Source: Streptomyces albogriseolus (GTDB lineage Bacteria > Actinomycetota > Actinomycetes > Streptomycetales > Streptomycetaceae). From it: 64,000 bases of DNA. Each line of letters begins with the position of its first letter. Position 1 is the first letter of the stretch. The position numbers and the translations under genes were made by a program. Below the pieces are notes generated by a model. It saw nothing but the letters and a program-made list of their open reading frames with translations. It made no database searches and was not told the origin of the DNA. The stretch covers positions 248,001-312,000 of the forward strand of contig BMVA01000001.1 in assembly GCA_014650475.1 (NCBI GenBank), given 5' to 3'. Positions 62,693 to 64,000 of the stretch are shown in pieces.

Positions 62693-63022
62693 GTGACCTT
62701 GGACACAACGACCGTGGTGTGGGGTGTCGCGGTTCTCGCCGCCCTGGTGCTGGCCGGCGCCGTGGCCGTGCTGGTGCGTCTGGTCCGCACACGGCGGGAG
62801 TTGCGGCGGGCGGGGCTGCCCACCGGTCCCCGCTGGGTGTTCTGGGGCGCGGTGCTCTATCTGGTGTTTCCGGCCGATCTGTTGCCCGATCCGGTGTACC
62901 TGGACGACATCGGCGTCCTGCTGCTCGCTCTGCGCACCATGCGTGGCTCCCTCGGCGCGGGGGCGTCCGGAGTGCCCGGAAGGCGGCCGGGCCGACAACC
63001 CGCCGATGATTACGCTCCGTGA
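62693..63022 (+). CDS. YkvA (DUF1232)-like membrane protein
   Basis: 109-aa protein with an N-terminal transmembrane helix (VVWGVAVLAALVLAGAVAVLV), a basic linker and the DUF1232 motif LVFPADLLPDPVYLDDIGVLLLALRTM, typical of small YkvA proteins. Function unknown. GTG 62693 has AAAGGAGGG immediately upstream. It lies 120 bp before the graspetide precursor on the same strand; a link to it is not established. Confidence 0.88.
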   Translation: MTLDTTTVVWGVAVLAALVLAGAVAVLVRLVRTRRELRRAGLPTGPRWVFWGAVLYLVFPADLLPDPVYLDDIGVLLLALRTMRGSLGAGASGVPGRRPGRQPADDYAP

Positions 63023-63142
63023 GGAAACCAACCACCCGTTCGATTCGTATAAGTCTCTGGAAGCCAACGCAAGTCGGCGGACCAAGCGGCGGCGCACAGA
63101 AGGCCGTTGCCTGATCGGCGCAGCACCGACGAGGGAGAGACG

Positions 63143-63334
63143 ATGCAACCGTTCGCGCTCAACTACGCCCGTCCGGCGGTGGAGTTGGCCGTTGCCACTC
63201 CGTATGCGTATGACTCCGGACTGCAGTTGAACGTCCTCGGTGACGGGCGGATCGCGGCCTGCGACCACGCCCTGTTGCGCGAGGTGGGGACGACCACGTC
63301 CACCGCGGGCTCCAAGACCCACTTCGACGACTGA
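63143..63334 (+). CDS. tgmA: Graspetide (ATP-grasp RiPP) precursor peptide
   Basis: 63-aa precursor. The leader contains the recognition-like PFALNYARP motif, then a central LQLNVLGDGRIAACDHALLR segment, and the C-terminal core (about 50-63) is TTTSTAGSKTHFDD: Thr/Ser side chains with Asp62 and Asp63 available for ester linkage. This matches the ATP-grasp-modified RiPP precursor type of Streptomyces (TgmA). GGGAGA precedes ATG 63143, and TATAAG at 63048-63053 is a possible -10. The maturase gene starts 16 bp downstream. Product unknown. Confidence 0.88.
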   Translation: MQPFALNYARPAVELAVATPYAYDSGLQLNVLGDGRIAACDHALLREVGTTTSTAGSKTHFDD

Positions 63335-63350
63335 ACGCGGACCGTAGACC

Positions 63351-64000
63351 ATGACCGTGCTGATCCTCACCTGCGAGGAGGATGTGACCGCCGACATGGT
63401 GGTGGTCCATCTGAACGGCGCAGGGGTGCCGGTGGTCCGTCTCGACCCCGCCGACCTCACCGAAGGCGTCTCGCTGTCCGGCGAGTACGTCCACGGCCGG
63501 TTCCGCGGCCATCTGTCCGCCGGCGGACGGCTGGTGAGCATCGGCGGACTGCGGTCGGTGTGGGTGCGCCGCCCCGGCCTGCCGGCCGGGCGCGCGCCGC
63601 AGCCGTCCGCCTGGCTGACGGAGGAGGCGTCACAGGCCCTCTACGGCATGCTGCGCGGCTGCGACGCGCGGTGGATGAACCACCCGGACGCCGCACGGCA
63701 GGCCCGCCACAAGCCGTGGCAGCTGCGCCTGGCCCAGCGCTGCGGGCTGCCCGTGCCGGCGACGGTGATCACGACGTTCCCGCGCGCGGCGCGGGAGTTC
63801 GCGGAGCGGTTCCCGGATCTGGTGGTCAAGCCGGTGTCGGGGGCGCATCCGCAGGATCCGCCGCGGGCCGTGCCGACCAGCAGGGTGGCGCCGGACACGG
63901 ACTTCTCGGCGGTGGCCTACGGGCCGACGCTGCTGCAGCGGCGGATCGCCAAGCGGGCGGACATCCGGCTCACCGTGGTGGGCGACGTGCTGCTGGCGGC
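63351..64000 (+). CDS. tgmB: ATP-grasp ribosomal peptide maturase, 5' part
   Basis: The first 216 codons are in the window; the gene runs off the edge. The N-terminal pre-ATP-grasp region has MTVLILTCEEDVTADMVVV, VWVRRPG and MNHPDAARQARHKPWQLRLA, and the ATP-grasp fold begins with GLPVPATVITTFP and VVKPVSGAHP. This is the family that forms ester or amide bonds in graspetide precursors using ATP. The gene is 16 bp after tgmA. Family loci often have a third gene, a protein O-methyltransferase, which would lie beyond the window. Confidence 0.93.
   Translation, partial: MTVLILTCEEDVTADMVVVHLNGAGVPVVRLDPADLTEGVSLSGEYVHGRFRGHLSAGGRLVSIGGLRSVWVRRPGLPAGRAPQPSAWLTEEASQALYGMLRGCDARWMNHPDAARQARHKPWQLRLAQRCGLPVPATVITTFPRAAREFAERFPDLVVKPVSGAHPQDPPRAVPTSRVAPDTDFSAVAYGPTLLQRRIAKRADIRLTVVGDVLLA

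Follow-up and report, generated by a model that had tools for sequence, protein, structure and literature searches.

A graspetide precursor and maturase at the edge of the window

The window, by which we mean the whole 64,000-nucleotide stretch of Streptomyces albogriseolus DNA analysed here, ends within a pair of adjacent genes on the forward strand. The first of these (63143..63334) is a graspetide precursor gene of the tgmA type, whose frame (MQPFALNYARPAVELAVATPYAYDSGLQLNVLGDGRIAACDHALLREVGTTTSTAGSKTHFDD) begins with an ATG at 63143 and ends at 63334, giving 63 amino acids plus a stop codon. The Pfam profile PF14404 (Strep_pep) aligns with positions 1-63 of the 63-residue product (E 3.4e-38, 130 bits against a gathering score of 25), and the TIGR04186 profile (GRASP_targ) also matches over its cut-off (53.5 bits, cut-off 25). 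Because one family profile covers all 63 positions and a second exceeds its cut-off, this short frame is not a chance occurrence. The two matches also confirm the original prediction of a 63-residue graspetide precursor that carries PFALNYARP in its leader and a core ending in two aspartates.

The leader motif PFALNYARP (residues 3-11; 63149..63175, forward strand) is kept across relatives and fits the pattern Phhx(1,2)h, which PMC8939145 gives as the leader motif of graspetide precursors. The core, TTTSTAGSKTHFDD, comprises residues 50-63 (63290..63331, forward strand) and includes the candidate donors T51, S53, S57 and T59 as well as the acceptors D62 and D63; 10 of its 14 positions are identical in all 180 loci that we compared. 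Thus, the precursor combines the elements by which the class is recognized, namely a leader motif of the Phhx(1,2)h type and a core with Ser/Thr/Lys donors and Asp/Glu acceptors. A further class feature, an adjoining ATP-grasp ligase of the MvdC/MvdD/TIGR04187 type, is supplied by the second gene.

This second gene begins with an ATG at 63351, leaving a gap of 16 bp behind the precursor gene, and its first 650 bases (63351..64000, forward strand) lie inside the window. The source genome is 8.07 Mb, and the same contig can be read past the window edge, where the gene continues to 64334 and encodes an intact protein of 327 amino acids. With TIGR04187 the protein reaches 376.8 bits (cut-off 350) and is the single match to that profile in its own genome. 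Furthermore, residues 1-321 align with PDB entry 9BOU at 564 bits; this entry is an MvdD-like pre-ATP grasp domain-containing protein of similar length (solved chain of 339 amino acids). The next matches among solved structures are 5IG8, 7M4S, 7MGV and 5IG9 (E 2.6e-25 to 2.4e-21), which we take to be ligases of the microviridin and chryseoviridin types. Structure prediction for the maturase of a 96%-identical homologue yielded only a poor model, with a mean pLDDT of 40.6, from a shallow alignment of 21 rows that are 81-91% identical, and phage records yielded only two distant relatives of the maturase (26 and 31% identity). The assignment of the gene 16 bp behind the precursor as an ATP-grasp maturase is therefore borne out by TIGR04187, and the disruption past the window that had been named as grounds for abandoning it was looked for and is absent, since the frame is complete to 64334.

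Conservation of the core among related loci

To assess which parts of the precursor are constrained, 180 loci were compared, of which 100 were drawn from PF14404 matches (a profile that itself includes the core) and 80 were the best of 456 matches from a maturase search. The two sets overlap and the loci are related. Since they are not independent and some species are present in both sources, conservation was counted a second time, using 131 distinct precursors. In each of the 180 loci the precursor and maturase genes are adjacent and share a strand, and the core residues T2, S4, A6, G7, S8, T10, H11, F12, D13 and D14 are identical in every one. Only four core positions vary: T1 is replaced by Ala in 11 loci and by Ser in 10, T3 by Ala in 3 and Val in 3, T5 by Lys in 6, and K9 by Ala in 10 and Gln in 10.

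Codon choice among the 131 distinct precursors varies synonymously at T2, S4, A6, G7, S8 and T10; for example, S53 is written in five codons and T59 in four. F61 and D62 use a single codon each and H60 and D63 nearly so, such that synonymous change provides no independent test at the former two positions and almost none at the latter two. Because synonymous codons vary at many invariant positions, conservation of the core mostly reflects selection on the peptide.

The constancy of the core is most evident between loci whose maturases have diverged. We compared pairs from 59 Strep_pep loci and from 11 of the 17 loci with a maturase that are linked to a protein-L-isoaspartate O-methyltransferase (PIMT), these being the ones in which a precursor could be picked. 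At maturase identities of 45-55%, the mean identity of Strep_pep cores is 90% and that of their leaders 52% (297 pairs), whereas PIMT-type cores, which are longer, few in number and delimited by eye, are 38% identical (18 pairs). The contrast narrows at higher maturase identity, where Strep_pep and PIMT-type cores are 88 versus 78% identical (maturases at 65-75%) and 99 versus 81% identical (75-85%).

An additional 31 loci were taken at the places of maturase matches and therefore offset the bias of selection by the precursor profile, although their choice was not random: 20 places were selected by hand, and 11 came from 10 genomes with a weak or unlisted precursor match. Thirty of these loci encode an in-frame core that ends with THFDD. 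In the remaining one (L281, genome G085), leader and core lie in different frames, as would be expected of a pseudogene or an assembly error. A separate locus (L108), the second cassette of genome G218, has a maturase frame of only 82 amino acids that is either broken or mis-called, and was left out of the maturase tree and the pair comparison.

These patterns bear on the architecture of the predicted rings. Conservation narrows the always-present candidate donors to T51, S53, S57 and T59 (core T2, S4, S8 and T10), whereas T50, T52, T54 and K58 are dispensable rather than obligatory because each is lost in some loci. With two acceptors, D62 and D63, two esters are allowed, and more could form only if the C-terminal carboxylate joined in. 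Several ring topologies had been considered possible for this core; the set of donors has now been reduced, but conservation does not settle on one connectivity. A lactam through K58 was also considered and is rejected as a general feature, given the replacement of this residue by Ala in 10 and by Gln in 10 of the 180 loci. The Ala state at K58 needs two changes on the maturase tree.

Downstream genes and the expected methyltransferase

In the source genome, the maturase gene is followed by a 72-aa ORF (minus strand), a DUF2269-like membrane protein gene (minus strand; the assignment is weak and under its cut-off), an AraC-type regulator gene (plus strand) and an ABC transporter gene (minus strand). 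The 72-aa ORF lies outside the window at 64380-64598, is convergent with the maturase gene and has no Pfam match. It is present in 95 of the 180 loci at a median distance of about 21 bp from the maturase end. All 95 loci are of the K type, and we therefore regard its presence as synteny until shown otherwise.

A methyltransferase of the PIMT type had been expected beyond position 64000. However, no such gene is present in the next 2 kb or among the ORFs listed over about 7.7 kb 3′ of the maturase gene (sequence read to L002 12500, where window position = L002 + 55999). Likewise, searches with 20 oriented PIMT queries found none beside the cassette in any of the 180 related loci, each of which includes at least 1996 bases behind the maturase gene. 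The one PIMT-like match within these loci is weak (L124; 32.7% identity over 113 amino acids, E 4e-5) and lies 4.1 kb upstream of the precursor gene. As a positive control, all 20 PIMT loci of the genus were recovered by another PIMT query.

The PIMT loci of the genus carry maturases of a different kind. The window's maturase matches a maturase in 17 of the 20 (30-38% identity) and none in the other three, and the ends of these 17 matches range from 116 bases ahead of the PIMT match to 16 bases inside it. In a tree of 76 maturases, which has long branches among the PIMT rows according to a warning from the tool, the 17 PIMT-linked and 59 Strep_pep enzymes fall on opposite sides of a branch with support of 100/100. 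TIGR04188 has nothing over its cut-off in the source genome, where weaker matches lie on other contigs, while 107 of 295 congeneric genomes contain a match over cut-off. Moreover, Asp occurs in the core solely at its last two positions, leaving the loop without an Asp that could serve as a site of methylation and aspartimide formation. The proposal that this cassette makes an aspartimide like that of related Streptomyces loci is thus unsupported, and the expectation that Streptomyces graspetide loci with this type of leader include an aspartimide-forming methyltransferase should be corrected.

Distribution and genomic context

PF14404 precursors over cut-off are present in 161 of 295 sampled congeneric genomes. 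Sampling at wider rank gave 35 of 150 genomes for the family, where 6 of 17 genera have a match, 144 of 293 for the order and 20 of 296 for the class; the matches in the class sample all belong to the window's genus. Maturase matches with E values of 1e-30 or better were found in 212 of the 295 congeneric genomes. In 51 of these the E value is above 1e-60, and none of the 51 is among the genomes with a PF14404 precursor. When the two listings are read together, the remaining 161 maturase genomes (best E 1e-100 or better) are the same 161 that carry the precursor. Streptomyces althioticus (96%) and S. griseoincarnatus (95%) are among the named close relatives.

On contigs of 6.9 Mb or more, 35 of 50 copies are situated in the outer 15% at either end, compared with 15 expected. 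One relative with a maturase 81% identical and a THFDD core is located on a linear plasmid of 1.16 Mb. Two cassettes at distant places were seen in each of eight genomes (G218, G244, G104, G252, G254, G240, G067 and G026).

Neighbouring genes of the 180 loci were clustered, those outside the window without annotation. The resulting families are mostly confined to the window's clade, in which gene order is conserved; outside this clade, the neighbours of the cassette are nearly all unique. In 51 loci, every one from the window's (K) clade, an ABC transporter gene is retained at a distance of about 2.5 kb. A family whose sequence reads like that of aldo/keto reductases is shared by 34 K and 5 Q loci, where it lies kilobases from the cassette and not always on the same side. 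Four smaller families are likewise found in more than one type. Some of these genes may act as helpers in the window's clade. By this clustering, no hidden partner gene stays beside the cassette across contexts in the 180 loci, and only the precursor and maturase genes are common to all of them.

A promoter-like element upstream of the precursor gene

A putative promoter of the ECF-sigma type, GAAAC-N17-CGTATA, is located upstream of the precursor gene (63024..63051, forward strand). The pattern AAC-N16/17-CGTA occurs within 150 bp of the start codon in 130 of the 142 loci of the window's clade (82 distinct precursors), compared with about 3 to 4 expected from dinucleotide-preserving shuffles and none on the opposite strand of the same loci. 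Conservation drops outside this promoter-like block. In the other subtypes, the strict pattern is present in 4 of 10 A and 2 of 12 K2 loci and absent from all 10 Q and all 6 far loci. A looser pattern with up to two mismatches occurs in 8 of 10 A loci (0.8 expected from shuffles of two-base blocks), 7 of 10 Q loci (0.9 expected) and 6 of 12 K2 loci (1.5 expected). The layout resembles that of sigmaE promoters, which PMC6767563 tabulates for S. coelicolor. Judging from these sequence patterns, an ECF-type promoter probably drives the cassette in the window's clade, and its transcription may possibly respond to envelope stress.

Two other upstream features were observed. A small gene at 62699-63022, whose product scores slightly above the DUF1232 cut-off, stops immediately ahead of the promoter-like site. 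Also, inspection by eye revealed a near-palindromic element resembling GTGACGACCTTCAC ahead of several Q-, A- and K2-type precursors (for example at L120, L126 and L128), which is possibly a regulator site.

Proposed function and alternative explanations

The architecture of the locus, coupled with the conservation of its core, leads us to a proposal that we consider likely as a whole: the cassette is a minimal two-gene graspetide system whose product carries two omega-esters and acts on a conserved partner, and which is transcribed in the window's clade from an ECF-type promoter. By analogy with other members of the family, PFALNYARP in the leader would dock on the maturase, which would activate the carboxylate side chains of D62 and D63 at the expense of ATP. 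Coupling of these carboxylates to Ser/Thr hydroxyls would then form two omega-esters (-36 Da) within the C-terminal 14 residues, the number and connectivity of the esters being predicted from the core. Any removal of the leader and any export would probably depend on genes elsewhere, since no methyltransferase adjoins the pair and no neighbour is constant across contexts. Most likely, the product has a conserved partner in Streptomycetaceae on which it acts as a signal, a regulator or an inhibitor of one of the cell's own proteases, and not as a diversifying antibiotic, because the core, including A55, G56 and H60, which cannot be cross-linked, hardly changes while leader and enzyme diverge. 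Transcription in the window's clade would probably start at the ECF-sigma-type promoter, possibly in response to envelope stress.

Other explanations for the same observations must be weighed. The invariance of the core could result from maturase recognition alone, such that the enzyme demands an exact sequence and no conserved partner of the product exists. Cross-linking enzymes may be selective, and the donors and acceptors are indeed among the invariant residues. Yet the PIMT-type cores are far more different from one another at enzyme identities of 25-55%, and the fuscimiditide maturase is described in PMC12291112 as highly promiscuous in loop and stem; we therefore regard this explanation as doubtful. 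An antagonistic role, in which the product is an antibiotic or bacteriocin-like graspetide directed against competitors, would fit the patchy presence of the family (161 of 295 genomes), the placement of 35 of 50 loci in the outer 15% of long contigs (15 expected) and the relative on the 1.16 Mb linear plasmid. A core that does not diversify is not what such a role predicts, and among the neighbours, which outside the window were clustered only, no candidate exporter, protease or immunity gene is constant beside the cassette across contexts. A weapon of this kind is consequently unlikely.

Two further possibilities are highly improbable. The cassette might produce an aspartimide-bearing group 13 graspetide (a graspimiditide) on which a PIMT-type methyltransferase acts after ring closure, as the shared TIGR04186 and TIGR04187 families and the presence of TIGR04188 over cut-off in 107 of 295 congeneric genomes might suggest. 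However, a PIMT gene is absent downstream and beside the 180 relatives, while the control found all 20 PIMT loci. The genome itself lacks TIGR04188 over cut-off, the PIMT-type maturases form a separate clade (support 100/100), and no Asp lies between donors and acceptors in the core. Equally improbable is a decaying or unmodified locus. The different frames of leader and core at L281 (1 of the 31 further loci), the short maturase frame at L108 and a single stop inside some maturase-search matches, which may be natural ends, are the kinds of defects that decay would leave. Nevertheless, the window's own precursor frame and maturase are intact, and the core is under plain purifying selection.

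Our preferred reading remains a conserved two-gene cassette whose product has a conserved partner. Tentatively, this reading can be extended to a fixed cross-linked peptide that is present in about half of the sampled Streptomyces genomes, is turned on by an ECF sigma factor of the envelope-stress type and serves one conserved partner in the producer or its kin rather than as a weapon. A graspetide of this kind would have a role akin to housekeeping, for example as an endogenous signal, a protease regulator or a cofactor-like peptide. Graspetides are usually mined for their diversity, whereas Strep_pep shows the opposite, a near-constant core despite large enzyme divergence and many genomic contexts. 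This near-constancy makes a function within Streptomyces testable, limits the rings to a few donors and predicts the class of regulator.

Comparison with known graspetide systems

More than 20,000 predicted graspetides have been counted, according to PMC13097080, and PMC8939145 names Strep_pep as one of the families first seen in 2009. In the open literature searched, neither the core and leader strings nor the family accessions led to a description of a product, and Strep_pep appears there as a family name. The search likewise retrieved no paper on PDB entry 9BOU, the text matches being unrelated. The view that the product is undescribed thus stands for this literature, but the precursor family is already in Pfam and has been named in print.

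The group 13 graspimiditides fuscimiditide, amycolimiditide and albusimiditide, which come with a PIMT in the account given by PMC13001092, share with the window's cassette an actinomycete origin and, as predicted for the latter, leader-guided Thr-to-Asp cross-linking by an ATP-grasp enzyme. The window's cassette is unlike group 13 in that it lacks a PIMT, has another leader motif and encodes a maturase that is 30-38% identical and belongs to a separate clade. Its core also differs from those of group 13, as it has 14 residues, no loop Asp and greater conservation.

Also related are the plasmid-borne sister cassettes of Streptomyces sp. NBC_01240, NBC_01238 and RLB1-9, which encode the cores STTSTAGSATHNDDD / TTTSTAGSATHNDDD and maturases 44-47% identical to that of the window. 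The donors are unchanged in these cores, as are the AGS and TH elements, but F61 is replaced by N and an extra, third Asp is present, giving the ending THNDDD. Two of the three precursors were scanned with PF14404 and both match over cut-off. In these sister cassettes (L284, L285 and L289) a third small gene lies directly behind the maturase gene; the two of these that were tested have no Pfam family over cut-off.

The closest match is the family pair of PF14404 (Strep_pep) and TIGR04187, named tgmA/tgmB by NCBI. The window's precursor matches this precursor family from end to end, its maturase belongs to the same subfamily, and no difference in sequence sets them apart. The window's cassette is therefore a further member of an already catalogued family, and its conservation is unusual.
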